A stretch of 64,000 nt of DNA from a virus: positions 26,068 to 90,067 of IMG/VR virus record IMGVR_UViG_3300042888_000931. One strand, written 5' to 3'. Shown piece by piece: positions 25,542 to 57,504 of the stretch. Within the stretch, counting starts at the first letter, position 1, and every line of letters begins with the position of its first letter. The notes beneath the pieces are model-generated. The model saw nothing but the letters and a program-made list of their open reading frames with translations. It was not told where the DNA came from and ran no database searches. A program made the translations under genes and the position numbers.

Positions 25542-26705
25542 ATGATAACTAATGTAGGCAAAAATATCTTAGCAAAGTACCTTGTTGGACAGACAACATC
25601 TTATGCATCTCACATCGCTATAGGGTGTGGAACAAATCCAGTGGCATCTGACTACACATTTAGTCCTGCCGAGTTACTGGCAATGAAAAATAGAGAATCC
25701 CTAGAGTTTGAAATGATCCGCATGCCTATTGTTTCTAGAGGCTTTGTTGATGAGGACGGAATATCAAAGGTTGTTCTAACTGCAGAACTTCCAACTCAAG
25801 AAAGATATGAAATTACAGAGGTAGGTATATTTTCTGCAGCATCAAACCCAGTAGCAGGAGCATTCGATAGCAGAGTTGTTTATTCTTTTTCAGACACCGA
25901 CAACTGGCGATACAGTATTGATGGAGAATCTCCTACTAATATTTTTGTACAAAATGCTCCGCTAGATGGAGAAACAAATACTGGAAATATTATTCAGACA
26001 CCAAAAGTTTTTGCAACAAATGCAGACAATAGAATTTTTACAGACGAAGACAGAGTTGCCAGAAATGAAAGATGTAGATTTTTAAATAACATTATTGCAA
26101 TGAGAGGCGACACATCGAGCCTTGGCTATAACCCACAAGGAAGCATGGTTCCTCTAACTGGTTCAGACTACATTATATTAGATCCTACATCTATAGATTT
26201 TACAAAGAATAGCCCATTAGATGAACTTCGTCTTGCATTTTCTATTGCTAACAAGACTGCAAACTCTCTAACTGTTCCAGACAACGTTAAAATACTTTTA
26301 GAGTTTTCTCACCCTGGAGCAAACTCAAGCATACAGTATGCAAAGTTTCAAGTAGACATTGATGATACAGGATACGACAATGGGACGTCTGTAAACTCTC
26401 ATGATTTTGAAAACAATAGATACGTCGTAGTAAACAAAACTTTTCAAGAGTTAGACAAGAGTTTGAGATTTAGTTGGTCAGAAGTTAAAACAGCAAAGAT
26501 TTATGCCACTATTACTAAAAACAATCTTCCATCTGATTCCTATTATGTTTGTCTGGATGCTCTGAGGGTTGAAAATAATACAGCAACAAACTCTCTCTAT
26601 GGAATGACTGGGTACTCTGTAATTAAAAATGTACAGTCTAGACCAATTATTAAATCAGCAAACACAACAAACTATATTGAGTTTAGATTTGCATTGGATG
26701 TTTAA
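25542..26705 (+). CDS. Tail fibre / baseplate protein
   Basis: 387 residues. The N-terminus (MITNVGKNILAKYLVGQTTS, then YASHIAIGCGTNP) and the following ELPTQERYEITEVGIFSA resemble attachment domains of phage tail fibres. The central and C-terminal parts are beta-rich (IKILLEF-type strands, FQELDKSLRFSWSEVK), compatible with a jelly-roll or receptor-binding region. The ribosome site is GGGAGCAATCAATG. Fibre role is inferred. Confidence 0.6.
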   Translation: MITNVGKNILAKYLVGQTTSYASHIAIGCGTNPVASDYTFSPAELLAMKNRESLEFEMIRMPIVSRGFVDEDGISKVVLTAELPTQERYEITEVGIFSAASNPVAGAFDSRVVYSFSDTDNWRYSIDGESPTNIFVQNAPLDGETNTGNIIQTPKVFATNADNRIFTDEDRVARNERCRFLNNIIAMRGDTSSLGYNPQGSMVPLTGSDYIILDPTSIDFTKNSPLDELRLAFSIANKTANSLTVPDNVKILLEFSHPGANSSIQYAKFQVDIDDTGYDNGTSVNSHDFENNRYVVVNKTFQELDKSLRFSWSEVKTAKIYATITKNNLPSDSYYVCLDALRVENNTATNSLYGMTGYSVIKNVQSRPIIKSANTTNYIEFRFALDV

Positions 26706-41519: not shown

Positions 41520-42692
41520 ATGAATTCATTCAAGAAAATCGCACTAGCCGTGGTTGCAGCCATGACTTTGGGCATGGTCGCAGTAGCACCTGCAAATGCT
41601 ACAGTAATGACAGTGGCGGTAACGCTAGACGGAACAGCAAACACAACAAACGGTGTAATTGCTACCCCTGCCACACTACCAGTCCCAGCAGACAACACAA
41701 TCGATGCAGCAGATGCACTACGATTTGTGGCAACAGTTGCAGCAGGAACATCAGTTACTGCAGTAGCAACTAACGCAACAATCGTATCTGCACTACACAC
41801 ATCAGCAGCACCAGTCGGAGCATCGTCAGGATCATCATCTTTGACAATTGCAACAGGCACTGGAACAACTGCAACATTTTTTGTCTACACAAAGACAACA
41901 GCAATTGGCACAGTTGTAATCAACAACGGTGGAACAACTCTTACATACTATGTACAGGGTACTGCTGGTAAGATCAACAACCTAACAGTTTCAGCACCTT
42001 CAGCAGGTGCAGCAGGAACTAAGCAGGATATCGTTGTAACTGCAACAGATGCATTTGGTAACAAGGTATCTGGTAAGTCAATTACAGCAACCGTATTTGC
42101 TTCAACAGCAGTTATGGACACAGCAACAGTAACAACTGGTGCTACACTAACAGATTTTGGAACAGCAACCTTCAAGGCTACTCTTCCAACAACAGGAACA
42201 CGCTCACTAATTACTTTTGCACCAACAACATCATCAGATGCAGTTGCAGCAGCAGTAGTTGGTTTGACTGCTCCAACACTTGCACCATTCGCAGAGATTG
42301 CAGTTCGTGATCTAGTATCAGAACTTGCTGCACAGACTGCTGCAAAGATTGCTGCAGAGAATGCTCTTGCTGCTGCCGTTGCTAAGGCTGCAGCCGATGC
42401 TGCTGCTGCAAAGGTTGCTTCAGATGCAGCACTTGCTGCTAAGAATGCAGAACTTGCAAAGTTCAAGGACGACACAACAACAGCAGTTGCTCAGGCAAAG
42501 GCTGCTTCAGATAAGGCACTTGCAGATGCAAAGGTAGCATCAGATGCTGCTCTTGCTGCTAAGGATGCACAGATTGCTAAGTTGACTGCAGATAATGCAG
42601 CAGCACTTTCTTCTTTGAAGAAGTCATTCAATGCACTTGCTACAAAGTGGAACAAAAAGAATCCAAAGGCTAAGGTTACTCTAGTTAAGTAA
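41520..42692 (+). CDS. Secreted surface (S-layer-like) protein with Ala-rich coiled coil
   Basis: 390 residues. A signal peptide is evident (MNSFKKIALAVVAAMTLGMV, cleavage after PANA near residue 27). The mature part has Thr/Val/Gly beta repeats, an Ig-like segment near 160-230 (DIVVTATDAFGNKVSGKSIT), then ~110 residues of Ala/Lys coiled coil with the twice-repeated KVASDAALAAK unit. It ends in a basic ATKWNKKNPKAKVTLVK. It resembles host actinobacterial cell-surface proteins rather than virion proteins and may alter the host envelope or exclude other phages; that is inference. A strong terminator follows. Confidence 0.7.
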   Translation: MNSFKKIALAVVAAMTLGMVAVAPANATVMTVAVTLDGTANTTNGVIATPATLPVPADNTIDAADALRFVATVAAGTSVTAVATNATIVSALHTSAAPVGASSGSSSLTIATGTGTTATFFVYTKTTAIGTVVINNGGTTLTYYVQGTAGKINNLTVSAPSAGAAGTKQDIVVTATDAFGNKVSGKSITATVFASTAVMDTATVTTGATLTDFGTATFKATLPTTGTRSLITFAPTTSSDAVAAAVVGLTAPTLAPFAEIAVRDLVSELAAQTAAKIAAENALAAAVAKAAADAAAAKVASDAALAAKNAELAKFKDDTTTAVAQAKAASDKALADAKVASDAALAAKDAQIAKLTADNAAALSSLKKSFNALATKWNKKNPKAKVTLVK

Positions 42693-42796: not shown

Positions 42797-44944
42797 ATTA
42801 AACGACTACTAAGAATAGTAACAGCCACAGTTCTAGCCTTTGGCTGGCTACTTATAGCCCCCCAGGAAGCCCACTCTGATGATCCACTCACAGTAGCAGC
42901 CCAAGAAATACAGGAACTTAACGATAGCGTAGATGACCTTGGCTATCAAGATGATTTTATAGATCTTATAGAGATAGCAGAAAATAAGTTTGCCTCAGCC
43001 ACAAATGCGAAGGAACTTAAAGATGATGCCTATGATGCCCATGAAGATGCAGTAGAGGCAGAGGCCACAGCCTTAGAAGCAAAGAACCTTGCCCAATCAA
43101 ATGTGGATGGTCAGACAGCGACAGTAGCCTTGGCCCTTGAACATAAAGACAACGCTCTTGAAGAAAGAAACGATGCACAGGATGCTCTCAGCATAGCCAA
43201 CATAAATGTTCAAACCACCCAATCAAATATTCAGAGTGCTGGGGGACAGGGTTTGGCATATACGGTTTATCATTTAACTAGAACATTTCCTGGCATAGCA
43301 ACTCCAAGTGGAGTTATCTGTTCTGGTACATGGAATTCAAATTCTATGCAACTGCCAGTTTGCGGTAATAGATATGAAAACTTTGTAGTTAAATTTACTG
43401 GGAGAATTACTGTTCCAGATCACTGGACACAAACATATTTTGCAGGATCCACAGACGATGGTTTTAGAATGTATGTTGATGGACAACTTGCTGTCAATAA
43501 CTGGGTGGAACAGGGTGTTACCTGGAGTGATTACTCGCCAGTGTATGATGTTAGTGAAGACAAGACTTTAGATGTAGAAATTTGGTGGTATAACGGAGGA
43601 GGCCCAGGCTCTTACCATCTTGGATGGGCAATTCCTGGAGGTTGGACTGGAGCAGGTTGTGATTATACTGGTGGATGGGGAGTAGGTTTTAGTTGTAACC
43701 TTGGAACATTCTCTTCTGGACCAGGACCAACTCAATCACAGTTAAATGCATATGATGAAGCACTTGCAGCAAGGGCTACAGCACAAACAAATTATAATAA
43801 TAAGTTAGCAGTTTACAATGACAAACTAAGCGTATACAACTCTGAGAATGCAACACTGTCATCAATGAATCAGGTTTTGCAAACCAAAACACAGGAACAT
43901 CTTGATGCAGTTGCAGATACAGAAGATGCTTTAGAGTTGAAGAATAGCAGAATAGAAATATACAATCAGTCAATCGTTGACTTAAATAATTCTATTAATG
44001 ATGCATGGGAATATTACTACGAGCAAGCACAAAGAGAACTTAATGCTGCTATTGCTCAAGCAGCAGCAAATGCTGCAGCCAATCAGCCTACCCCAGAACC
44101 CACACCAGAACCTTCTCCAGAACCAACTGAAGAGCCAACAGATGAACCAAGCCCAGAGCCATCCCCAGACCCAACAGATGAACCAACTGAAGAACCAACT
44201 GAAGAACCTACACCAGATCCTTCTCCAGAGCCTACAGGAGACCCTACAGATGAGCCTACACCTGAACCTACCCCAGAAGTTACCCCAGATCCAGAACCAA
44301 CTGAAGAGCCAGTTGTAGACCCAACTGAAGAGCCTACTCCAGAGCCTTCCCCAGAACCTGGACCAGATCCAGAGCCAGAAGATAATCCTTGGACTGAACC
44401 AGATGTAGAAATCAAAGATGAAGTATTAGAAGCCCTCATTCCTGAAAAGGGAACTGGTACATCAGAAGATTTATCTGGAGTTATTGCTAACCTTACAAGC
44501 AAAGATAATAAGTTAGTTACTCTTTCCCCTGAACAAATTACAGCAGTAAGTCAAACACTCAAAGCATTGACGCAAGAAGCAAAAGTAGAAGTTGCAGAAG
44601 ACCTTGGTATTAAGCCGTCAGAAGTTGCAGAGATTGCTGAGCAGATGAAGTCTAACCCAGCACTTGCCGAAGCATTTGTTGAGTTTACTGACAGAGCAGA
44701 ATCAGCAGGAGAAACCCCAATGCCATTTACATTAGCAGATGCAGTAACAGAAGTACAGACAGAAGCATTTTTAGCAGACCCACTTGGTGCAGTATTTGAA
44801 GTGGATGTTACAGAACTCCTATCCAATTTCTCTGAGTTGGGTATGGATATGACAGATGATCAGAGAGAAAAAGCCCAAGAAGTCATTATCCCAGTAATCA
44901 TTGTTTCACAGATTGCAAATGTAATGATTGGGATGAGGAGGTAA
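42797..44944 (+). CDS. Secreted PA14-domain protein with Pro-Glu repeats, ATT start
   Basis: The frame stays open well upstream of the first conventional start (GTG 43103). Read from ATT 42797, just behind AAGGGGGAAAGG, it begins with a textbook signal peptide: Met-KRLLRIVTATVLAFG, WLLIAPQEAHS. No ATG, GTG or TTG exists in frame before that peptide. The 715-residue product has an Ala/Glu coiled region (~30-150), a PA14 lectin-like domain (~155-310: FVVKFTGRITVPDHW, STDDGFRMYVDGQLA), a second coiled region, a long PTEEPTPEPSPEP linker (~430-530), and a helical end with a hydrophobic VIIPVIIVSQIANVMIGM. It is likely an extracellular glycan-binding protein. Confidence 0.72.
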   Translation: MKRLLRIVTATVLAFGWLLIAPQEAHSDDPLTVAAQEIQELNDSVDDLGYQDDFIDLIEIAENKFASATNAKELKDDAYDAHEDAVEAEATALEAKNLAQSNVDGQTATVALALEHKDNALEERNDAQDALSIANINVQTTQSNIQSAGGQGLAYTVYHLTRTFPGIATPSGVICSGTWNSNSMQLPVCGNRYENFVVKFTGRITVPDHWTQTYFAGSTDDGFRMYVDGQLAVNNWVEQGVTWSDYSPVYDVSEDKTLDVEIWWYNGGGPGSYHLGWAIPGGWTGAGCDYTGGWGVGFSCNLGTFSSGPGPTQSQLNAYDEALAARATAQTNYNNKLAVYNDKLSVYNSENATLSSMNQVLQTKTQEHLDAVADTEDALELKNSRIEIYNQSIVDLNNSINDAWEYYYEQAQRELNAAIAQAAANAAANQPTPEPTPEPSPEPTEEPTDEPSPEPSPDPTDEPTEEPTEEPTPDPSPEPTGDPTDEPTPEPTPEVTPDPEPTEEPVVDPTEEPTPEPSPEPGPDPEPEDNPWTEPDVEIKDEVLEALIPEKGTGTSEDLSGVIANLTSKDNKLVTLSPEQITAVSQTLKALTQEAKVEVAEDLGIKPSEVAEIAEQMKSNPALAEAFVEFTDRAESAGETPMPFTLADAVTEVQTEAFLADPLGAVFEVDVTELLSNFSELGMDMTDDQREKAQEVIIPVIIVSQIANVMIGMRR
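44086..44393 (+). repeat. Pro/Glu/Thr-coding tandem repeat
   Basis: Degenerate 12-18-base units such as GAACCAACTGAA encode repeated TEEP/TPEP/SPEP in the PA14 protein. The DNA repeats could expand or contract by slippage and change linker length. Confidence 0.75.
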
Positions 44945-45519: not shown

Positions 45520-46044
45520 ATGACTTGTATTGCAGTTGTACGCCATGAAGATAAAATTTACATGGCTGGAGATCGTGGGGCATCAGATGATGGCACCATT
45601 CTAGCACTTGAAGCACCAAAGGTTTGGAAGATAGGTCCATACTTAATTGGATATGCTGGATCAATGGACGGAGAAAGAATCCGTTACAACTTTAAACCAA
45701 CTGCACCCAACATTAAAGACACAGACAGATTTATGCAGACAAGGTTTATTAAAGAACTAAAAGAATTCTACAATGAGTTTTGGGTTGACACATCAAAAGA
45801 TGGAGACCTTGGTTTAATTATTGCAGTTCGTGGAAACATCTATGAGCATAGTTCTGCGGACATGTCTTTATCTAAGTATACACTCCCATACCTTGCTATG
45901 GGGTCTGGAGCAGAGTATGCATATGGAGTTTTATATGCAACGGATAAGCAGAAAAATGCAAGGAATAGAGTAGTCCAAGCAGTAAATGCTGCAATTAAAT
46001 TTAACCCATCATGCATGGGCCCAGTTGACATCGTCAGTCTATAG
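45520..46044 (+). CDS. Proteasome-beta/HslV-like Ntn-hydrolase
   Basis: 174 residues. After Met removal the N-terminus is TCIAVVRHEDKIYMAGDRGA, matching the HslV and proteasome-beta pattern TTIVxVR...hAGDgq: Thr1 as nucleophile (Cys2 next to it), Asp in AGD near position 17, Lys in KVWKIG near 33, and the GYAGSMDG turn near 47. Such enzymes cleave peptides in multisubunit chambers and normally need an ATPase partner, which is not encoded here. It could degrade host or phage proteins, or be an orphan amidase. The length is near that of HslV. The promoter is bracketed by inverted repeats, so it is probably controlled. Confidence 0.75.
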   Translation: MTCIAVVRHEDKIYMAGDRGASDDGTILALEAPKVWKIGPYLIGYAGSMDGERIRYNFKPTAPNIKDTDRFMQTRFIKELKEFYNEFWVDTSKDGDLGLIIAVRGNIYEHSSADMSLSKYTLPYLAMGSGAEYAYGVLYATDKQKNARNRVVQAVNAAIKFNPSCMGPVDIVSL

Positions 46045-46059: not shown

Positions 46060-46278
46060 ATGAGCGAAGAATTTGAAGAGATTCTAAAGGACATACAGAA
46101 TATGGAATCAGACTTTGACGAGTTTGAAATCTGGCTTGATAACGGTATTCAGCGTGGCTGGATAACGGAACCGTTCTGCAATACTCATGATGGAGATCCG
46201 TATATGAGTGAAGAAGAGCAACAGGAATGGGAAGAGGGCGGAGACCCTTGCCAAGTAGTTTTAAAAATCAAACAATAA
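46060..46278 (+). CDS. Small acidic phage protein
   Basis: 72 residues with a predicted leaderless start. Very acidic N-terminus (MSEEFEEILKDIQNMESDFD), then NGIQRGWITEPFCNTHDGDP and EEGGDPCQVVLKI. This pattern recurs in many actinobacteriophage small proteins, from memory, with unknown function. Two Cys and a His could bind metal. Confidence 0.65.
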   Translation: MSEEFEEILKDIQNMESDFDEFEIWLDNGIQRGWITEPFCNTHDGDPYMSEEEQQEWEEGGDPCQVVLKIKQ

Positions 46279-46298
46279 CAACAAAAAGGAGAAACAAG

Positions 46299-47177
46299 AT
46301 GAAGAAAACACTACTAGCACTACTATCAATTGCAATTGCATTTACAGCAATTGCCCCAGCACAAGCACAAGATGAGAGAGTCTTGGCAATTATAGACACA
46401 GCAATTAACTCAAATAACTTTCCATCAATCATTCATGAAGTATGCTTCACAGCAAATGACAAGTTTGCCATCAATGTTGGTGGCTCTGTACTATGTCCAA
46501 ATGGTAGCACCTTCATGGAGGGCAAAGGTGCAGCAGGAAACTCAGCATGGCCAAAAAGTGGGTGGAGTAATGGCGTTTTCCACGGAGATACAATGGTTAA
46601 GTCTGCGTTAACAGTTAATCCCAACCTTAAGATTGTTTTTGTAAGAATTGCAAATATTGGCAAAGATGGCGGAACCAATCAACATTCTAATCGAACAATT
46701 GATTTAGCAATTGAGTGGGTCTCAAAGAATGCATCAAAGTACAGCATTGATGCTGTATCAATTAGCCAATCAAATCTTGCTCTTGATCGATGCTCAAAAG
46801 ATTTTAGAACTATCAATTCTATTTCATCTCTAACCGCTAATAATGTTGCAGTTTTTGTTGCAACAGGAAATGATAGACGACGAGATGTTGTAGGGTTTCC
46901 ATCATGTGTTCCTGGAGCAATTGGTGTAGGAGCACTAAGCAATGCAACACAACTAGAAACAGCAACCAATACAGGTCCTGGACTTGACATGGTTGCACCT
47001 GGCAAGGTAAGCATTACTAAGTATAATGGTTCACCAACAGACACTGCTGGAAGTTCTGTAGCAACTGCAGTCTCTGCAGCATCATATGTAAACCGTAACA
47101 CCTTTAAAACATTTGGAGAGTATCTCTCATCTCTTCCAAAGATTTTAATTGGTACCACATCATACATTCGTAACTAA
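46299..47177 (+). CDS. Secreted subtilisin-like serine protease
   Basis: 292 residues from ATG 46299 behind AAAAAGGAG. Signal peptide MKKTLLALLSIAIAFTAIAP with cleavage after AQA (residue 23). The S8 catalytic set is visible: Asp33 (LAIIDTAIN), His95 (NGVFHGDTM), oxyanion Asn191 (FVATGNDRR) and Ser253 in TAGSSVATAVS, where the usual GTSMA reads GSSVA. There is no propeptide domain and no long C-terminal anchor, so it is compact. It could attack cell-surface proteins at lysis or disarm superinfecting phages; this is inference. It follows the lysis-region genes and precedes a tRNA. Confidence 0.8.
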   Translation: MKKTLLALLSIAIAFTAIAPAQAQDERVLAIIDTAINSNNFPSIIHEVCFTANDKFAINVGGSVLCPNGSTFMEGKGAAGNSAWPKSGWSNGVFHGDTMVKSALTVNPNLKIVFVRIANIGKDGGTNQHSNRTIDLAIEWVSKNASKYSIDAVSISQSNLALDRCSKDFRTINSISSLTANNVAVFVATGNDRRRDVVGFPSCVPGAIGVGALSNATQLETATNTGPGLDMVAPGKVSITKYNGSPTDTAGSSVATAVSAASYVNRNTFKTFGEYLSSLPKILIGTTSYIRN

Positions 47178-47212: not shown

Positions 47213-47285
47213 TGCCCTATAACTCAGATGGTAGAGTGCCGAACTGTTAATTCGGATGTCCCTGGATCGAGGCCAGGTGGGGCAG
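47213..47285 (+). tRNA. tRNA-Asn (GTT)
   Basis: Full cloverleaf: acceptor TGCCCTA with TGGGGCA, D-stem ACTC/GAGT, anticodon stem CCGAA/TTCGG with loop CTGTTAA (anticodon GTT), T-stem CCTGG/CCAGG with loop ATCGAGG. 73 bases including discriminator G; CCA is not encoded. Confidence 0.93.
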
Positions 47286-47287
47286 CG

Positions 47288-47324: not shown

Positions 47325-47960
47325 ATGGCAGCAAAAGGCAGTCTAGAAGCAATCATTGAGGTTGCAAAGAAAGAGTTGGGCACAATCGAAGGCCCTAAAG
47401 ATAATGAAACAAAGTACGGTGCATGGATTAAGGTTAACTTCCAACCATGGTGCCAGTCCTTTGTTTCTTGGTGTGCATTTACTGCGGGAGTAAAATCATT
47501 CCCTAAGTCTGCATCAACAGTAGCAGCATCAGATCAATTCAAGAAAGAAAAGCGTTGGTCAGATGCTCGTAATGATGATCCACAGCCAGGAGACTGGATC
47601 TATTTTGATTTCCCAGATGATGGTGTAAATCGTATTTCACATGTTGGTCTTTGCATTAAGAACAACGGTGATGGAACTATCCAAGTTATTGAAGGAAATA
47701 CTTCAGGAACTGCAAAGGGAGACCAGCGCAATGGCGGAATGTGCGTAGAGAAGACTCGTGCATATGTAAAGAATAACAAGAAGAAGTTAGTTAATGCTGT
47801 TGTTGGTTGGGGCCGTCCAGTTTACACTGGTGAAGAAAACGCTCCACTACTAAACAAGTTAGCAGCAACACCTGCCAAGTCAACATCTGCCGATGCTGCG
47901 AAGAAGGCTGCAAAGAAACCATCTGGTGGTGGTGGAGGAAAGCCACAGGTAGCACTATAA
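47325..47960 (+). CDS. CHAP-domain endolysin
   Basis: 211 residues. The CHAP (NlpC/P60-like) catalytic set is visible: Cys in FQPWCQSFVSWCAF near residue 47, His in RISHVGLCIKN near 107, and Asn/Glu in VIEGNTSG near 125. The domain spans ~5-165. The C-terminal ~45 residues are Ala/Lys/Gly-rich (ADAAKKAAKKPSGGGGGKP), a basic tail that may bind the anionic cell wall in place of a folded binding domain. It would cleave peptidoglycan cross-links once holins open the membrane. It carries its own promoter and ribosome site. Confidence 0.85.
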   Translation: MAAKGSLEAIIEVAKKELGTIEGPKDNETKYGAWIKVNFQPWCQSFVSWCAFTAGVKSFPKSASTVAASDQFKKEKRWSDARNDDPQPGDWIYFDFPDDGVNRISHVGLCIKNNGDGTIQVIEGNTSGTAKGDQRNGGMCVEKTRAYVKNNKKKLVNAVVGWGRPVYTGEENAPLLNKLAATPAKSTSADAAKKAAKKPSGGGGGKPQVAL

Positions 47961-48288: not shown

Positions 48289-48474
48289 ATGGCATTATAC
48301 GAATACGATTGTATGCCTTGCGGTCAAAGGTATACAAAAGAAAGATCAATTAAAGAAGACGACCCAGGGTATGGTTGCGAAACTTGCAATCTGCCTCTGG
48401 TTCGTGTATACTCTAATGTAGGAGCAGTATTCAACGGTAGTGGATTTTATTCCACTGATAACAGAAAGCGGTAG
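48289..48474 (+). CDS. FmdB-like zinc-ribbon protein
   Basis: 61 residues. MALYEYDCMPCGQRYTKERS and GCETCNLPLVRVYS give the CxxC/CxxC ribbon of the FmdB family, whose members begin with (M)P-x-Y-x-Y-x-C-x-x-C. It is called a putative regulator in databases, but the role is unclear. It starts one base after the previous stop. Confidence 0.7.
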   Translation: MALYEYDCMPCGQRYTKERSIKEDDPGYGCETCNLPLVRVYSNVGAVFNGSGFYSTDNRKR

Positions 48475-48480
48475 TATAAT
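48475..48480 (+). promoter_or_regulatory. -10 element for leaderless gene
   Basis: TATAAT in GGTAGTATAATG. The ATG at 48488 lies 7 bases downstream; an in-frame ATG at 48479 overlaps the -10 itself and would precede the transcript start. Confidence 0.55.
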
Positions 48481-48487
48481 GTTTAGT

Positions 48488-48706
48488 ATGATCAAAGACA
48501 AGACTGAAGAAAAGCAATGGACTCTAACACCTCATGATCGTTGTGACAGATGCAGTGCTGAAGCCTTAGTCAAGGTTACTGGAATAACTGGAGATTTATT
48601 CTTCTGTGGTCACCACTACAACAAGGTTATGGCTATTCCAGATGGATACAATAGCATGATGTCTTTTATGATCAGCGTAGTTGATGAGCGAGAAAAACTA
48701 ACTTAG
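48488..48706 (+). CDS. Zinc-binding protein, DUF7455-like
   Basis: 72 residues from the leaderless ATG at 48488. The motif PHDRCDRCSAEALVKV followed by DLFFCGHHYNKVM provides three Cys and two His, the pattern of the actinobacterial DUF7455 family. That family is found in actinobacteria and their phages, supporting the host assignment. Function unknown. Confidence 0.7.
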   Translation: MIKDKTEEKQWTLTPHDRCDRCSAEALVKVTGITGDLFFCGHHYNKVMAIPDGYNSMMSFMISVVDEREKLT

Positions 48707-48708
48707 TA

Positions 48709-49548
48709 ATGAATATCCACTATATGCTGAGAGATGCACACTGTGATGTAGATCAATTAAAAGATCTCTCAGACAGACTAGAGGACTCTGGATATAACTC
48801 AGTCTTGCTTACCTTTCATTCGGCCCAAGCAGACTATTTTATAAAGTCTGCTGCTGCACTTACGCCAGGCCATAAACTAAAGTATATGCTTGCTTTAAGG
48901 CCATACCATGTAAGTGCTCAGTATGCTGCGATGATGACTAGAGGGTATAGCGAAATAGATAAAGACAGACTTGTTTTTAATTGGGTTGCTGGAGACTTTC
49001 ATGGAAGAGATGACGAGCCAGATATTGAATTTGATATCTTTGGAGAGTCAGAAGAAATAGATAGCATTCAAAAAAGAACTACCTACTTAAGAAAGTTTAT
49101 GGATATGTACAAGTTGTACTGCCCAACAGCAGTAGTTCCACGAATGGTTTTTAGTGGTGCCTCTGACTATGCCATAGAAACGGCAAAAATGTTTAAGGGA
49201 ACAACCTTATGCATGTTGGACACATATAGAGAGGGTCCAGAAAGGTTTGACGGACTTGCTGGCATAATGGTTAGTGCTGGAGTTGTTATCTTAGAATCAA
49301 ATAAAGATATTGAAGAGTATAAGAGTAAACTTATTAATGTTAACCCTAGGCTATTAAGTTACTCAATAATTGGAGACCGTGAAACAGTCAAACAAAAAAT
49401 AATTGAACTTGAAAATGAAAAGATAACCGATCTATTATTGTTTACAAATAACTTATTCTTTGGTTTAGACTGGAGCAAGAAAAATGATATTGCTGTAAAC
49501 AATTTAGTTAAAGAAATAAACAGTGAGGCCAAACAGAATGATAATTAA
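48709..49548 (+). CDS. Luciferase-like flavin monooxygenase 1 (SsuD-like)
   Basis: 279 residues, TIM-barrel pattern of alkanesulfonate monooxygenase-type enzymes: SGYNSVLLTFHSAQADYFI, KLKYMLALRPYHVSAQYAAM, YSEIDKDRLVFNWVAGDF (compare SsuD ALRPG...D...GRL.IN.V.G), then YAIETAKMFKGTTLCMLDTY. Family members use reduced FMN and O2, for example to release sulfite from alkanesulfonates. It is shorter than SsuD (~380), having lost C-terminal parts. It heads the tailoring cassette and has a paralogue at 56219. Substrate unknown. Confidence 0.75.
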   Translation: MNIHYMLRDAHCDVDQLKDLSDRLEDSGYNSVLLTFHSAQADYFIKSAAALTPGHKLKYMLALRPYHVSAQYAAMMTRGYSEIDKDRLVFNWVAGDFHGRDDEPDIEFDIFGESEEIDSIQKRTTYLRKFMDMYKLYCPTAVVPRMVFSGASDYAIETAKMFKGTTLCMLDTYREGPERFDGLAGIMVSAGVVILESNKDIEEYKSKLINVNPRLLSYSIIGDRETVKQKIIELENEKITDLLLFTNNLFFGLDWSKKNDIAVNNLVKEINSEAKQNDN

Positions 49549-50122
49549 TCAAAAAGAATATGACTCAATCCTGTTTGTACATATACCAAAGACTGCTGGA
49601 TCTTCAATTTCTAAAATATTAAATGATAATAATTTAGACAATTGGAAGAGAGAATGGCCAAGGCACCATGATCCATACTCATACTTAAAAGAAGCAAACC
49701 CAGTAGATGAGAAAGTGTTTTCTTTTGCTGTTGTAAGAAACCCATACACAAGAACATACAGTTGCTACAAGCAATACAACAAGGCTAATCAAACAAATAT
49801 ATCTTTTGCACAGTACCTAGACAATATTAAACAAGGAAAAATATCTCCAATAAGCCCACTACTTCATCTACCCCAGTCATTTTATATCATGGATCAAAAT
49901 AATCTACAGGTAGAAAGACTTTATAAGTTTGAGAACCTAAAAGAACTAGAAGACGAACTTGGATGGACTCTTGGATTTTACAACGTGGGCAACTATGTGG
50001 TAGAATCGTATATAGAAGACTATACAGATGAGGCAATAGAAATGACTAAGTACTTTTACAGTTCTGACTTTGCAAACTTTGGATACTCTAAAGATTTTAA
50101 TCAGACCCTGGAGACAAAATGA
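49538..50122 (+). CDS. Sulfotransferase-like protein 1
   Basis: 194 residues from ATG 49538 behind GTGAGG, overlapping the previous gene by 11 bases. The PAPS-binding signatures are present: 5'-phosphosulfate loop SILFVHIPKTAGSSISKIL at ~10-28 and the 3'-phosphate motif FAVVRNPYTRTYSCYKQY at ~68-86. This is the small sulfotransferase-2/carbohydrate type. The predicted APS kinase two genes downstream could supply PAPS. The acceptor (glycan, lipid or small molecule) is unknown. Confidence 0.78.
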   Translation: MIINQKEYDSILFVHIPKTAGSSISKILNDNNLDNWKREWPRHHDPYSYLKEANPVDEKVFSFAVVRNPYTRTYSCYKQYNKANQTNISFAQYLDNIKQGKISPISPLLHLPQSFYIMDQNNLQVERLYKFENLKELEDELGWTLGFYNVGNYVVESYIEDYTDEAIEMTKYFYSSDFANFGYSKDFNQTLETK

Positions 50123-50682
50123 GAAAGATGCTAGAAGATTTTAACTTTAAGCAACATGGCAAGTACGATGTTGATCCAATCAGAAACTATATAGATAGTT
50201 TTTCTGAAGAATGGTTTATCAATACATCAAGACAAGACAACTACTATGTCCATAAGGATACAAACTCATACTTCGTGTACACCGCAAATCTTGGGTGGAA
50301 AGAAGGAGAAGACTTTTCTACTCAGACAACATCTAACGACAAGGATCTACTTGAACTTCTTGAGCCAATAATTTCAGACCTTGAAAAAATACACGATGGT
50401 GTTAGAGGCATGGTCCTTTTAATTAAGTTAAAGGCAGGACAAGATATTGCACCGCACCATGACTCAGGAGACTACCTTATGCTTTCAAAAAGAAATCATA
50501 TACCAGTAGTAACTTCTGACAGCGTATTCTTTGGTGTGGGAGATGAAAAAGTCAAGATGGGTACTGGAGAATGCTGGGAAATAAATAACTCAAGACTTCA
50601 TTTTGTAAATAATGGAAGTAAAATAGATAGGGTGCATTTGTTAATTGACATTATGCCAAACATAGAGATAGGTAAAAAATGA
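50119..50682 (+). CDS. Aspartyl/asparaginyl beta-hydroxylase-like dioxygenase
   Basis: 187 residues, coupled by ATGA. The double-stranded beta-helix of this family is visible: QDIAPHHDSGDYLMLSKR with His113/His114, NHIPVVTSDSVFFGVGDEKV, TGECWEINNSRLHFVNNGS with His161, and IDRVHLLIDIMPN with Arg171 to bind 2-oxoglutarate. Such Fe(II)/2-oxoglutarate enzymes hydroxylate protein Asp/Asn or lipids (LpxO). Its neighbours suggest a joint modification pathway. Substrate unknown. Confidence 0.75.
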   Translation: MRKMLEDFNFKQHGKYDVDPIRNYIDSFSEEWFINTSRQDNYYVHKDTNSYFVYTANLGWKEGEDFSTQTTSNDKDLLELLEPIISDLEKIHDGVRGMVLLIKLKAGQDIAPHHDSGDYLMLSKRNHIPVVTSDSVFFGVGDEKVKMGTGECWEINNSRLHFVNNGSKIDRVHLLIDIMPNIEIGKK

Positions 50683-51437
50683 TTATTCAGATTATTGGTC
50701 TGCCAGGTGCAGGCAAGACAGAGTTAGCCAAGGCACTCAAAGAAAGAATTAACGCTATTCATCTTAATGCAGATGAGGTTCGTGCAACAGTAAATTCAGA
50801 CCTAGGCTTTAGCCCTGAAGACAGAATTGAACAGGCAAGACGTATGGGAGACATGGCTAGGCTTATTTCTAAGCAGGGAGTTGCTCCAGTAATCGTTGAC
50901 TTTGTATGCCCTACCGACTTGACTCGTGCAGCATTTGGCAAGCCAGATATTTTAATTTGGGTAGACAGAATTGAGTCTGGAAGATTTGAAGATACAAATA
51001 AGATGTGGGAAGATCCAGAGTCATGCGATGTCAGAATCCCCTGTGGGATGACCGTAGAAGAAGAGGCTGACCTTATCATTGCTGCTTGCCAGTTACACGA
51101 TTGGACAGCCCCTACAACCCTTATGCTGGGCAGATATCAGCCATGGCATGAAGGCCATCATGCTCTCTATAAAGAAGCGGGGAAAAGAACAGAGCAGGTA
51201 CTTCTTGGAGTTCGTAATACCTACAATACAAGTGAGAAAGATCCACTTAAGTTTGATCAGGTAAAAGAATATATTGCCAAGGATGAATTTATGGACGGGG
51301 CATTAGTACTAAGATTACCAAACATAACCAACATTGTATATGGTCGTGATGTAGGTTATAAGATTGAACAAGTAGATTTGGGGGCAGACATTCATGCTAT
51401 ATCGGCTACGCAAAAGCGTAAAGAGATGGGTATCTAA
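50679..51437 (+). CDS. APS kinase / nucleotidyltransferase fusion
   Basis: 252 residues, coupled by ATGA. Residues 1-~140 are CysC-like: P-loop IIGLPGAGKTELAKAL (7-14), NADEVRATVNSDLGFSPEDR with the DR/RR pattern of APS kinases, and VAPVIVDFVCPTDLTRAAFG. Residues ~145-252 are an HxGH nucleotidyltransferase: TLMLGRYQPWHEGHHALYKE (His157, His160) and a closing ISATQKRKEM like the ISSTxxR motif. The first domain could make PAPS from APS. The second may be an adenylyl- or cytidylyltransferase rather than a true ATP sulfurylase, which has QxRNP...HRGH. Neither activity is proven. Confidence 0.75.
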   Translation: MIIQIIGLPGAGKTELAKALKERINAIHLNADEVRATVNSDLGFSPEDRIEQARRMGDMARLISKQGVAPVIVDFVCPTDLTRAAFGKPDILIWVDRIESGRFEDTNKMWEDPESCDVRIPCGMTVEEEADLIIAACQLHDWTAPTTLMLGRYQPWHEGHHALYKEAGKRTEQVLLGVRNTYNTSEKDPLKFDQVKEYIAKDEFMDGALVLRLPNITNIVYGRDVGYKIEQVDLGADIHAISATQKRKEMGI

Positions 51438-51485
51438 GGTTTGGAAAGTAATTAGTAAAGGCCCTGACAATATGGAGTGGCCAGC

Positions 51486-51689
51486 ATGAATGTATCCAAA
51501 CAAAGATCAGCACTAAAGGCCATTACATGGCGTATAATTGGAACAGCAGATACATTTGCTATTGCTTGGCTTATAACCAAAGAGCCAGTTACAGCAGGTG
51601 CAATCGCAAGTTTCGAGGTAGTTACAAAAACAATCCTTTATTACTTCCATGAGCGTGGTTGGAATAAGGTTAAATGGGGAAGAAAATAA
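51486..51689 (+). CDS. DUF2061 membrane protein 2
   Basis: 67 residues from ATG 51486 (GGAG 8 bases upstream; the in-frame GTG at 51477 is inside the site). KQRSALKAITWRIIGTADTF, AIAWLITKEPVTAGAIASF and ILYYFHERGWNKVKWG are characteristic of DUF2061. Two membrane helices. In bacteria this family has occurred near CysC-type sulfate genes, from memory, and here it directly follows the APS-kinase fusion, so a link to sulfur metabolism is possible. Paralogue at 47960. Confidence 0.75.
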   Translation: MNVSKQRSALKAITWRIIGTADTFAIAWLITKEPVTAGAIASFEVVTKTILYYFHERGWNKVKWGRK

Positions 51690-53212
51690 TGACTAAGAGT
51701 ATAGTTGTTGTTGGTGGTGGTAGTGCTGGATGGCTTACTGCTTTAACTGCAAAAAAGAAGTACCCTAAAGCAAATGTAACAGTAATAGAATCAAAAGACA
51801 TTGGTATCTTAGGAGCAGGAGAGGGGTCTACCCCATACCTTCCTGCATTCTTGGAGACTTTAGATATAAGTTTTGAGGATTTAGTTAAGAACTGTGACGC
51901 AACTATAAAGAATGGTATTAGGTTTACTAACTGGAATAGCCAAGATGACTTTTACTACCATGGTTTTGCATTCACTGATGAGGCACTTGGAACGGAAACA
52001 TTTTCCTCTAAGTTTTTATCTGCAAGCCCAATGCTTGTATCGAGTGTAGTATTAAATAATGGTGTGAAAGAAGTAGACTTTACAGAAACAATTTCAGAAA
52101 ATAGCAAGGTCCCGTTTGTCCTTGAAAAAAATAAAGAAGGCAAAACCCTTTCAGATTATAAAAAGATAGGACATATTTCTTTTCATTTTAATGCTACAAA
52201 ACTTGCAGCAAGATTTAAAGAGATAGGTGTTGAAAGAGGTATTGAGGTATTTGAAAATACTATAACCAATGTTCATCTAGATCAAGATAATAATGTCACA
52301 AGTTTAGACTTGGACAATGGATCTAAAATCCTGTGCGACTTTGTGTTTGACTGCAGTGGATTCCACAGGCTTATTATTGGAAAAACGTTTAATTCAAAAT
52401 GGAAGAGTTACACAGACTTCTTGCCTACAGACTCTGCTATCCCATTCTTTCTTGACATGACAGAAAAGATTCCACCATACACAGAAGCAATTGCTATGAA
52501 GTATGGATGGATGTGGAAGATTCCTCTGCAGAATAGATTTGGTTGTGGATATGTATACGATTCATCTTTGATATCTGAAGAGGAAGCAATCAAAGAGGTT
52601 GAAGAGTTTCTAGGGTTTGTTCCTCACTACCCAAGAAAAGATAAGGGTGGCTTCAGTTTCAGTCCAGGAGCATTCGAAGAGCCTTGGCAAAACAATTGTA
52701 TAGCAGTAGGTTTGGCAGCAAACTTTGTAGAGCCACTTGAGGCGACATCTTTGTGGGTAAGCATGGTAGAGTTGACAGAAATATTTGCCAGTCCAGACTT
52801 CCTGATCAACAACTGTCCTGAGATCAGAGCAGAGTTTAATAAGATTATTGTAAATATGAATGATGACATTCTTAATTTCATATACTTTCACTATATGTCC
52901 TTAAGAAAAGATACACCGTTCTGGGATAAGTTCTCTTACGAAAATGCACCAGAAGCACTGAAGAAAAAACTAGATGTTTGGCAAAAAAGAATGCCAGGCA
53001 GCAGAGACAACGGGGATCACTGGAACTCTAAGAGTTGGTTCTTAGTTGGTTCAGCACAAGATAAAATAAATAAAGATCTTGCAAAAGAATACATAGAACT
53101 TTCTGATGAGTACAAAAGGGGAATAGATATGTACGACTATCACAAAAGTTATAGGACCTATAAGGTTTCAGAATGTGTAGATCATAGACAATTTTTGGAG
53201 GGATTAAAATGA
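51689..53212 (+). CDS. Flavin-dependent tryptophan-halogenase-like protein
   Basis: 507 residues from ATG 51689, coupled by TAATG. The FAD site is SIVVVGGGSAGWLTAL (GxGxxG at 9-15) with GAGEGSTPYLP at 43-51. Lys74 in CDATIKNGIRFTNW aligns with the catalytic Lys79 of PrnA (K-x7-W spacing kept). The halogenase signature WxWxIP is present (GWMWKIPLQ, near 273), and FVEPLEATSLWV near 348 matches the EPLEST region carrying the second catalytic residue. It should form hypohalous acid from FADH2, O2 and halide, and halogenate an unknown aromatic substrate. Length (~500-540) fits. A flavin reductase was not seen. Confidence 0.85.
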   Translation: MTKSIVVVGGGSAGWLTALTAKKKYPKANVTVIESKDIGILGAGEGSTPYLPAFLETLDISFEDLVKNCDATIKNGIRFTNWNSQDDFYYHGFAFTDEALGTETFSSKFLSASPMLVSSVVLNNGVKEVDFTETISENSKVPFVLEKNKEGKTLSDYKKIGHISFHFNATKLAARFKEIGVERGIEVFENTITNVHLDQDNNVTSLDLDNGSKILCDFVFDCSGFHRLIIGKTFNSKWKSYTDFLPTDSAIPFFLDMTEKIPPYTEAIAMKYGWMWKIPLQNRFGCGYVYDSSLISEEEAIKEVEEFLGFVPHYPRKDKGGFSFSPGAFEEPWQNNCIAVGLAANFVEPLEATSLWVSMVELTEIFASPDFLINNCPEIRAEFNKIIVNMNDDILNFIYFHYMSLRKDTPFWDKFSYENAPEALKKKLDVWQKRMPGSRDNGDHWNSKSWFLVGSAQDKINKDLAKEYIELSDEYKRGIDMYDYHKSYRTYKVSECVDHRQFLEGLK

Positions 53213-53493
53213 AATTTAGAACAGAATGGATTAATGCTCTAAAGACAATGAGGCATAAATCTTATTGGAACCTACCTAATACGGTAGAGTTCTTTGCATT
53301 TATGACCAAGGCAGCAATCATTATCCCAGGTCTTATTTTTGGTGTTCAGTTTTGGTGGCTATATATATTTGCATTAGTAACTAGCCTATCTTTAATTTGG
53401 TCATCAACAGTTAAAACATTACCAACAATTATTTGGTTTAATATAATCTGGTCAATTCTTGCAGCAACTGCTATAATTAAGTATTGGGTCTAA
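53209..53493 (+). CDS. Membrane protein, three helices
   Basis: 94 residues, start overlapping the halogenase stop (ATGA) behind GGAGGG. Hydrophobic segments: FFAFMTKAAIIIPGLIFGV, WWLYIFALVTSLSLIW, and IIWFNIIWSILAATAII. The N-terminus is basic and aromatic. It is translationally linked to the halogenase and may localise or export its product; function unknown. Confidence 0.6.
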   Translation: MKFRTEWINALKTMRHKSYWNLPNTVEFFAFMTKAAIIIPGLIFGVQFWWLYIFALVTSLSLIWSSTVKTLPTIIWFNIIWSILAATAIIKYWV

Positions 53494-53503
53494 GGGGGCA
53501 CAA

Positions 53504-53911
53504 ATGTTTGAATATTATGTAAAGAAAGTAACAAAGGTCGTTGATGGAGACACCATCGATGTCGAAATTGATTTAGGGTTTGATATTTCTTTTAGTTCAA
53601 GAGTCAGACTGGCTGGTATTGATACACCTGAGTCTCGTACAGCAGACAAGGCTGAAAAGGCTTTAGGACTGGAAGCAAAGGCTTATTTGAAGGCTGCTAT
53701 TGACAGTGCTAAGTCTGTAGTGATCAAGACAGAGAAGATGGACTCTTCAGAAAAGTATGGCCGTATTCTTGGTTGGGTTTATCTTGATGGGGATACCGTT
53801 TCAATCAATGACAAGATGATCAATGATGGCCATGCCTGGGGCTATATGGGAGAGACAAAAGTTAAAGACTTTGTTGCACTTGCTAAGGCTAGAAAGAAGT
53901 CTGGTAAGTAA
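53504..53911 (+). CDS. Thermonuclease (SNase) family protein
   Basis: 135 residues. TKVVDGDTIDVEIDLGFD, SSRVRLAGIDTPESRTADKA, EKYGRILGWVYLDGDTVSIN and MINDGHAWGYMG are the staphylococcal-nuclease-like domain with Asp, Arg (RVRLAGID), Glu/Asp and the second Arg (YGRILGWV). No signal peptide, so it acts inside the cell, probably degrading host DNA or RNA for nucleotides. Ribosome site AAGGGGGCACAAATG. Confidence 0.85.
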   Translation: MFEYYVKKVTKVVDGDTIDVEIDLGFDISFSSRVRLAGIDTPESRTADKAEKALGLEAKAYLKAAIDSAKSVVIKTEKMDSSEKYGRILGWVYLDGDTVSINDKMINDGHAWGYMGETKVKDFVALAKARKKSGK

Positions 53912-56075: not shown

Positions 56076-56222
56076 ATGATAACACTAAAGAGCACAAACA
56101 ACATTAATATGTTTATGTGTGAAGAAGAATCCTGCGAAGAAGAGAGCACCCGCATTTGGGCTAGTTCACAAAGCAGAATTGCTGACCTGTGTGATTATCA
56201 TTATAGTAAGGCAACAGAATGA
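56076..56222 (+). CDS. Small putative zinc-binding protein
   Basis: 48 residues. MFMCEEESCEEESTRIWASS and RIADLCDYHYSKATE place three Cys and one or two His for a possible zinc site, similar in spacing to the CDRC...CGHHY protein at 48488. The stop overlaps the start of the second luciferase-like gene (ATGA). Function unknown. Confidence 0.55.
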   Translation: MITLKSTNNINMFMCEEESCEEESTRIWASSQSRIADLCDYHYSKATE

Positions 56223-57127
56223 AATTTTATTATTTTGGTGGAGTAATGGGTGATACAGAAAACATAAAGTCTCCATCAAACCTAAATAAGAATAACTTCT
56301 CTGGAGTAATGTTTACGCATGATATTCCAGAAGGCGATATGTTTGTTAAAACTGCAAAAGATATAAAGCAGGGTGAAGATATAAAATACTTAGTTGCTAT
56401 TCGTCCATACACAATTTCCCCTCAGTATCTTTCTATGATTAATAGATCAATGGACAAGATAGATAGAGGGAGACTCCAGATCAATTTAATTTCTGGATAT
56501 ATAAAAGACCACGAAGACGGTGTTGGTGGTGTTGTTGGAGATGTCAATGATAACTCCAGTGCTGTTGATAGATCAAACTATATGATAGAGTTTCTTAACG
56601 TATTAAACGATATGAACCAAGATAAGGAGTCTCCAGGATACTGGCGTGACCCAAACCATAAAAACAAACTAGATGTATATGTTTCAACAACTAACAGTTA
56701 TGTGTTTGAAACAGTAAAAAAGTATGGCCATAAAATTATTCTGCCATACCATATCTATGCTCGTGGTGGATGGTCTGATTTCTTAAAAGATTCCTCTATA
56801 TCTATTCCTTTGGAACTAGACGGTATAGAAGTGATGATTGCAATTACTCCCATTCTTAGAAAAACAGAAGAAGAACTTGACCTATTAACAAACCACGTAG
56901 TTCGACCAGTGTGGAGAAAGGGAGAGATCCCGCAGCCCGTTTTAGATGCTGCCTACTTTACATACGAACAGTTTGATGATCTCGTAAAGACTCTTGAAAG
57001 CAGGGGCATAAACCATATGCTTATTAATGCTGTTCCATCTGAAGAAGTAGATGTAATAGTGCCATTTATTAACCAGTATGTAGAATCAAGAAAAGGTTTT
57101 GTTAGTAACAAACTAACAAATGAATAA
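56219..57127 (+). CDS. Luciferase-like flavin monooxygenase 2 (SsuD-like)
   Basis: 302 residues, paralogous to the gene at 48709. KFYYFGGVMGDTEN start, DIKYLVAIRPYTISPQYLSM, NRSMDKIDRGRLQINLISGY and YVFETVKKYGHKIILPYHIY follow the SsuD/LLM barrel order and keep the RPY..S.QY...M pattern in common with its partner. Both may accept related substrates with FMNH2 and O2. It closes the accessory region whose other end carries gene 1. Substrate unknown. Confidence 0.75.
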   Translation: MKFYYFGGVMGDTENIKSPSNLNKNNFSGVMFTHDIPEGDMFVKTAKDIKQGEDIKYLVAIRPYTISPQYLSMINRSMDKIDRGRLQINLISGYIKDHEDGVGGVVGDVNDNSSAVDRSNYMIEFLNVLNDMNQDKESPGYWRDPNHKNKLDVYVSTTNSYVFETVKKYGHKIILPYHIYARGGWSDFLKDSSISIPLELDGIEVMIAITPILRKTEEELDLLTNHVVRPVWRKGEIPQPVLDAAYFTYEQFDDLVKTLESRGINHMLINAVPSEEVDVIVPFINQYVESRKGFVSNKLTNE

Positions 57128-57447: not shown

Positions 57448-57462
57448 TCTTACTATAGACTG

Positions 57463-57488
57463 GCAGGCTTGTTATTTGACAGGCCTGC
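57463..57488 (+). terminator. Intrinsic terminator overlapping the Hsp20 promoter
   Basis: GCAGGCTTGT pairs with ACAGGCCTGC (10 bp, one G-U), 6-base loop, then TTTTCT. The right arm contains most of the -35 TTGACA of the following promoter. Confidence 0.82.
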
Positions 57489-57504
57489 TTTTCTATGTTA
57501 TAAT
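57476..57504 (+). promoter_or_regulatory. Consensus promoter for Hsp20
   Basis: TTGACA (57476-57481), 17-base spacer, TATAAT (57499-57504) with TG two bases before it. All elements match sigma-70 consensus. Leader of ~50 bases holds GGGGGG and AAAGGGG tracts before ATG 57562. No CIRCE or HAIR repeat was seen. Confidence 0.85.

Follow-up and report, generated by a model that had tools for sequence, protein, structure and literature searches.

A cargo slot of probable freshwater actinophages carries interchangeable sulfotransferase-hydroxylase, APS kinase-like and halogenase modules

Phage genes for halogenases, 2-oxoglutarate (2OG) oxygenases and CysC have long been catalogued individually as auxiliary metabolic genes whose roles were guesses. 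A stretch of virus DNA in which such genes lie side by side raises the question of whether they act together. This stretch, here called the window, comprises 64,000 nucleotides (positions 26,068 to 90,067 of the 90,067-base virus record IMGVR_UViG_3300042888_000931 of IMG/VR). At 48709-53493 it carries seven genes that overlap or nearly abut, encoding a luciferase-like (LLM) oxidoreductase (LLM1), a sulfotransferase (ST), a 2OG-dependent hydroxylase (2OG), a fusion of an adenosine 5'-phosphosulfate (APS) kinase-like half and a nucleotidyltransferase half (APSK-NTase, or APSK), a DUF2061 membrane protein, a halogenase (HAL) and a 94-residue membrane protein (MEM). A first-pass annotation had read this run as one system of five enzyme types with embedded membrane proteins. 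Each of these enzyme types is present, as judged by profile searches and, for LLM1, by TIGR03565 and fold; all seven genes except MEM match known families, and DUF2061 and MEM are the membrane proteins. The short overlaps and the common + strand were also seen correctly. However, strand uniformity was discarded as evidence for a cassette because nearly all genes of the arm 1-59814 are on the + strand, which makes it uninformative.

The seven genes fill a slot between two conserved genes, for a DUF7455 protein and a staphylococcal-nuclease-like (SNase) protein. In five scans of IMG/VR metagenomes, which gave several hundred overlapping loci, these border genes flank 88 distinct cargo contents. 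The slot is empty in 7 of the 88 distinct sites, where the border genes are 10-235 bp apart. It holds APSK-DUF2061 alone in 15 sites, ST-2OG alone in 8 and HAL-MEM alone in 2, and the remaining sites contain mixtures. The exact order LLM-ST-2OG-APSK-DUF2061(s)-halogenase-MEM, whose conservation in related phages had been proposed as a check, is found in 19 sites (15 as in the window and 4 with a duplicated DUF2061), and the same modules occur in other arrangements in loci L054, L071 and L073. Because slot contents vary and the modules turn up in other arrangements, the cassette is an assembly of modules: the region is a cargo slot with interchangeable ST-2OG, APSK-DUF2061 and halogenase-MEM modules, an optional LLM gene and no fixed single pathway. 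The idea of one obligatory five-enzyme system therefore fails, since each of the three modules occurs without the others, in some cases at other sites, which is part of what the annotation had named as refuting it; yet the order is conserved in many relatives. The linkages recur in many distinct relatives and thus are not those of chance neighbours.

Modules that are found singly and reshuffled would also be expected if a recombination hotspot gathered unrelated auxiliary genes that act separately, APSK in host sulfur assimilation and the halogenase and LLM on separate metabolites. The poor correlation of HAL-MEM and HAL-APSK gene distances, i.e., recombination, fits this explanation, as does the usual occurrence of APSK without ST. 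The COBRA survey of cysC-encoding freshwater phages likewise interpreted cysC as part of assimilatory sulfate reduction (PMC10914622). We nevertheless consider this explanation unlikely. All 51 relatives of ST with 50% or greater identity have an adjacent 2OG gene, and in 48 of them APSK lies within 8 kb, with two of the three exceptions at contig ends. The sulfotransferase-like genes that accompany the 2OG gene come from different families; ST, 2OG and HAL co-cluster in other, unrelated phage lineages; and PAPS reductase is absent from 22 relatives.

ST is predicted by motif and profile to be a sulfotransferase dependent on 3'-phosphoadenosine 5'-phosphosulfate (PAPS). Its 5'-phosphosulfate-binding (HIPKTAGSS) and 3'-phosphate-binding (RNPYxRxYS) motifs are conserved in 15 diverse homologues, in which H20-G26, S28, R72-Y75, R77, Y79 and S80 are invariant. 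The gene probably begins at ATG 49538 rather than at GTG 49523 of the open reading frame, because homologues start there. Its neighbour belongs to the Asp/Asn/Pro-hydroxylase type of Fe(II)/2OG enzymes, and its HxD...H iron triad and 2OG-binding Arg (H113, D115, H161 and R171) are invariant in 12 homologues. The dependence of the pair is also seen from the 2OG side: of 78 2OG relatives that are 50% or more identical, 74 share their locus with a sulfotransferase, which is of the window type in 61 and of an unrelated family, c7, in 13. These 13 are among the 17 2OG loci without a window-type ST, and c7 carries HIPKTAG...IREP motifs; in a profile comparison of ST with c7 the PAPS loop alone aligns. 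In three of the 13, which differ in context, a c7 protein at 36% identity is encoded directly after 2OG. Two further families, c9 and c11, both with weak Sulfotransfer_1 matches and PAPS-type motifs, are paired with 2OG-family genes in L052, L066, L202, L208 and L198. The strongest argument for joint action of hydroxylation and sulfation is that a single hydroxylase family recurs beside sulfotransferases of more than one family. Remote ST relatives (33-45% identity) in other phages lie near genes for tryptophan halogenases, other 2OG oxygenases, Sulfotransfer_3 and DUF2061 proteins; no ST homologues were found in annotated phage records. As a separate observation, the c7-like gene in L369-L371 lies 11 bp after the 2OG gene, and other cassette genes are not nearby.

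The source of PAPS is suggested by the fusion protein. The closest relatives of its kinase half, by sequence and by fold, are APS kinases: the profile match covers residues 1-84, the AlphaFold domain extends to about residue 140, and the top 50 PDB matches of the model in a Foldseek search consist entirely of APS kinases and PAPS synthases. The P-loop GLPGxGKT is invariant in homologues, as are D32, R35, F44, R49, R54 and R55. An HxGH nucleotidyltransferase domain follows at about 145-252, and the HEGH, YGRD and ISAT motifs are kept in diverse homologues. The gene is a fusion, as had been described, with an APS kinase-like first half; the second half is closest to NMN adenylyltransferase (NMNAT; 2qjt, 3e-4), with a low-confidence AlphaFold model. 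ATP sulfurylase was considered for this half and rejected for want of homology. An exact-motif scan of 84,980 bacterial genomes for the fusion as a host gene gave one match, L383 (CANGYR010000020.1), in which a 91% identical DUF2061 gene lies beside the fusion. This contig belongs to the phage group of the window and was probably misbinned in a Chitinophagaceae metagenome-assembled genome (isolate RE-18aug17-154), so the scan yielded no copy of the fusion in a host.

The gene that directly follows APSK is that for DUF2061 in 74 of 80 loci. In cells, relatives of the window subtype are encoded directly upstream of cysH-cysD(-cysN), cysC-cysD, cysD-cysN or cysC (APS kinase) in 22 of 29 Bacteroidota loci (the Bacteroidota set includes L401-L423), and in three of these loci the gene that follows is that for APS kinase; weakly similar Bacteroidota DUF2061 genes are not upstream of cys genes. 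Because DUF2061 precedes sulfate-activation genes in Bacteroidota, APSK-DUF2061 may be tied to sulfate, and the phage-like subtype of DUF2061 is suggested to function in sulfate uptake or activation.

Two observations support the proposal that APSK supplies the sulfotransferase with PAPS, namely this linkage and a one-way asymmetry of the kind expected for a consumer and its supplier: ST nearly always occurs with APSK, and APSK seldom with ST (13 of 80 APSK loci). PAPS reductase/CysD (PF01507) was found in none of 22 large relatives, with the control detected in 14 of 14 cases. PAPS made by these phages would therefore not serve sulfate reduction of their own, although it could still feed the host CysH. 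ATP sulfurylase (PF01747), looked for elsewhere in these phages, was detected in none of 23 records.

We consider it fairly probable that the cassette hydroxylates and then sulfates a target with the aid of phage-boosted PAPS, and that halogenation is a separable addition. The 2OG oxygenase would install a hydroxyl on the target, and the adjacent ST would transfer sulfate from PAPS to it, in this presumed order. APSK-NTase and the DUF2061 protein would make more PAPS available, with host APS or sulfate as the starting material. HAL with MEM, and LLM, would act as modules separable from this pair and contribute a halogenation or redox step, possibly on the same target. We infer that PAPS is the currency shared by these enzymes and that a hydroxyl is the group that receives sulfate. 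A self-sufficient version of the system seems decidedly unlikely to us. In that version, the fusion would be a phage-specific miniature PAPS synthase whose non-homologous nucleotidyltransferase half makes APS, DUF2061 would be its sulfate-handling partner, swappable sulfotransferases would act on the 2OG-installed hydroxyl with an optional halogenase, and the virion or host surface would be altered.

Several points weigh against hydroxylation followed by sulfation. Since the phages counted are related to one another, the linkage counts do not represent statistically independent events. Any sulfotransferase was detected nearby in only 23 of 80 APSK loci, so APSK has other uses, and a 120-kb relative (G013/L071) carries ST-2OG without APSK. 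The assignment of c7, c9 and c11 as sulfotransferases comes only from motifs or weak profile matches, and the substrate is purely hypothetical. Canonical APS contacts are made by Arg, Phe, Arg, Asn and Ser of the DGDxxR, LGFxxxDR, ENxRR and FISP motifs. In APSK the Asn is replaced by Q52 and the Ser mostly by C77. Sequence similarity to APS kinases ends at residue 84, which leaves the C-terminal lid region unmatched by the profile; the AlphaFold model continues past this residue as one kinase-like domain.

The two replaced contacts, together with the likeness of the second half to NMNAT, would also suit a fusion that has no part in sulfate metabolism: it would produce or repair a different activated nucleotide (NAD-like, or a CDP or ADP donor) and share the site with ST-2OG by chance. 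Some homologues of APSK, for instance Cj1415 of Campylobacter, work on other nucleotides. Homologues of APSK-NTase occur in the Casjensviridae phages L374 (OR797045.1) and L376 (OR548257.1), near MazG-like genes and, in OR797045.1, adjoining a NADAR gene; these neighbours possibly hint at NAD or nucleotide chemistry for the homologue. We hold this explanation to be very unlikely in view of the APS kinases and PAPS synthases that fill the top fold matches, the presence of APSK in nearly all ST loci, and its regular partner DUF2061, which neighbours bacterial sulfate activation and precedes APS kinase itself.

If hydroxylation and sulfation are coupled, what is the target? The earlier suggestion was a host surface molecule or a small metabolite, and a virion protein is equally possible. 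We tentatively give the same weight to a host-envelope molecule and to a phage virion or secreted protein; a small molecule is distinctly less probable, and any other target is improbable. Post-translational decoration of the phage's own tail fibres or secreted proteins would specify the target and is compatible with hydroxylation and sulfation; as an explanation of the enzymes we regard it as possible, though somewhat unlikely. It is consistent with the position of halogenase, 2OG and sulfotransferase genes next to structural genes in other phages, namely with genes of these kinds that follow tail-fibre-like genes in L144/L145, with a halogenase that follows collagen-like genes in actinophage DSL-LC01, with halogenase-2OG neighbourhoods between structural genes in Sf-CH11 and among neck, sheath and terminase genes in HTVC008M, and weakly with the relationship of the 2OG family to Pro and Asp hydroxylases. 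On the other hand, the window slot lies near the lysis genes and terminase, outside the tail module, and no upstream protein is specifically tied to the cassette. An upstream PA14/PT-repeat protein, a secreted protein and an S8 protease were tried as substrates and rejected: their associations (p 0.001-0.09 with ST and 0.002-1 with HAL) are weak and confounded by relatedness. Two possible surface or virion proteins are encoded between the terminase and lysis genes, one with PA14 and Pro/Thr/Glu-rich repeats (43103-44944) and an Ala/Thr-rich one with a signal peptide (41520-42692).

By its motifs HAL belongs to the flavin-dependent tryptophan-halogenase family; this assignment does not imply tryptophan as substrate, as the family includes the broad-substrate VirX1. 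The GGGxAGWLTA motif, catalytic K79, WxWxIP and F351xE353PLE356ATS are conserved in 22 homologues (one row is N-terminally truncated), PDB profile matches include PyrH, PrnA, RebH and VirX1, and the reading frame is intact and complete in 73 of 74 distinct copies, the other being a remote 22% match. Of 80 MEM relatives, 79 have HAL no more than 3.5 kb away, and in 76 it is the gene directly upstream; no MEM homologues were found in annotated phage records. Matching of HAL and MEM alleles was considered and set aside, with a weak distance co-variation of 0.16.

LLM1, present in 27 of the 51 close ST loci, is modelled by AlphaFold (mean pLDDT 75) as an LLM TIM barrel. Its best PDB matches in Foldseek are the F420 oxidoreductase KvPepI and MsuD/SsuD, so that both F420 and FMN enzymes are included. 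A second gene, LLM2, shares 20% identity with LLM1 when the family is aligned and lies outside the slot; in some relatives (L003, L005 and L061 were examined) there are two tandem copies at its site.

Decay of active sites, which would have spoken against a functional cassette, was looked for across homologues and not seen. Median pairwise dN/dS values for the seven genes are 0.08-0.19, which indicates purifying selection. The host is probably an actinobacterium, because WhiB, an actinophage marker in the literature (PMC6802176, PMC10202952), and DUF7455 are encoded, and the phage group is best read as one of freshwater (lake) actinophages. The phages collection contained no close DNA relatives of the window. 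Features of the region are listed in the table; a promoter scan gave matches at chance level. Elsewhere, genes for a proteasome-subunit-like protein (45520-46044; PF00227, 2.8e-5), a secreted subtilisin-like protease (46227-47177) and a CHAP lysin (47325-47960) lie close together, and the lysis region includes a tRNA-Asn gene (47213-47286), the sole + strand tRNA found.

Table. Positions in the window of the cargo slot, its genes and nearby features, with supporting profile matches
Feature	Position	Strand	Support
DUF7455 gene, left slot border	48440..48706	+	Pfam PF24254 1.1e-14
LLM1, compact luciferase-like oxidoreductase, optional member	48709..49548	+	TIGR03565 (alkanesulfonate monooxygenase) 1.8e-8; no Pfam match
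ST, Sulfotransfer_2-type sulfotransferase (predicted)	49538..50122	+	Pfam PF03567 2.4e-7 (above cutoff); phrog_3347 3.4e-12
2OG, Fe(II)/2-oxoglutarate hydroxylase	50119..50682	+	PF05118 Asp_Arg_Hydrox 1.3e-12 (above cutoff)
APSK-NTase	50679..51437	+	PF01583 APS_kinase 5.5e-15; phrog_10255 6.9e-62
DUF2061, small membrane protein, APSK partner	51477..51689	+	PF09834 4e-23
HAL, flavin-dependent halogenase, PrnA/VirX1 family	51674..53212	+	PF04820 Trp_halogenase 2.5e-106
MEM, 94-aa membrane protein accompanying HAL	53209..53493	+	HAL association in relatives
SNase gene, right slot border	53504..53911	+	PF00565 3.7e-16
LLM2, second LLM gene, outside slot	56219..57127	+	TIGR03565 6.9e-9
Terminator-like hairpin, possible end of run	57462..57489	+	12-bp stem then T run; consensus match only

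The linkage data lead to a testable proposal, namely that freshwater phage cysC serves sulfation rather than cysteine synthesis and that hydroxylation goes together with this sulfation. Were this so, phages would possess a system that sulfates a target, with a bearing on receptor blocking, defence escape and virion adhesion, and DUF2061, a family without function, would gain a link to sulfate activation. The individual phage gene types are already known, and it is their combination that appears new. A listing of 2OG and prnA genes in cyanophages dates from 2010 (PMC3037559), and VirX1 is the halogenase of cyanophage Syn10 (PMC8407142). The word sulfotransferase is not mentioned in the cyanophage-halogenase literature checked for it, and no papers joining a sulfotransferase with a phage halogenase or auxiliary metabolic genes were found in a search whose coverage left out many subscription journals.

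Compared with known systems, each module shows likenesses and differences. LLM1 resembles SsuD/MsuD in its N-terminal half and in its TIM-barrel fold; however, it is about 100 residues shorter, and with 33.8 bits, far under the 518-bit equivalog cutoff, it was rejected as an alkanesulfonate monooxygenase. APSK-NTase is like PAPS synthase (PAPSS) in that an APS-kinase fold at the N terminus precedes an HxGH nucleotidyltransferase, and the PDB structures that match its fold best are kinase domains of PAPSS1. Unlike PAPSS, its nucleotidyltransferase half is about 105 residues long, NMNAT-like and without an ATP-sulfurylase match, and its lid region is unmatched. The same full-length fusion, 37-40% identical, is known as the phrog_10255 "kinase" of Stenotrophomonas, Xanthomonas and Clavibacter phages, in which its neighbours are NADAR, MazG and topoisomerase genes and not ST, 2OG or DUF2061. 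The freshwater phages of the COBRA survey also have an APS-kinase-like gene (PMC10914622); in contrast to the reading given there, the window phage has a kinase-nucleotidyltransferase fusion with DUF2061, its relatives have no PAPS reductase, and the fusion lies beside sulfotransferase-hydroxylase pairs. HAL shares the Trp_halogenase family with VirX1 and the other cyanophage flavin-dependent halogenases (phrog_2928): the VirX1 structure 6qgm gives a profile match of 3.8e-61, and the catalytic Lys, the Glu and WxWxIP are kept. Some cyanophages have 2OG genes beside the halogenase (PMC3037559). HAL differs from the VirX1 group in its identity to phage records (25-39%), its freshwater actinophage setting, its fixed partner MEM, and its linkage to a sulfotransferase and APSK.

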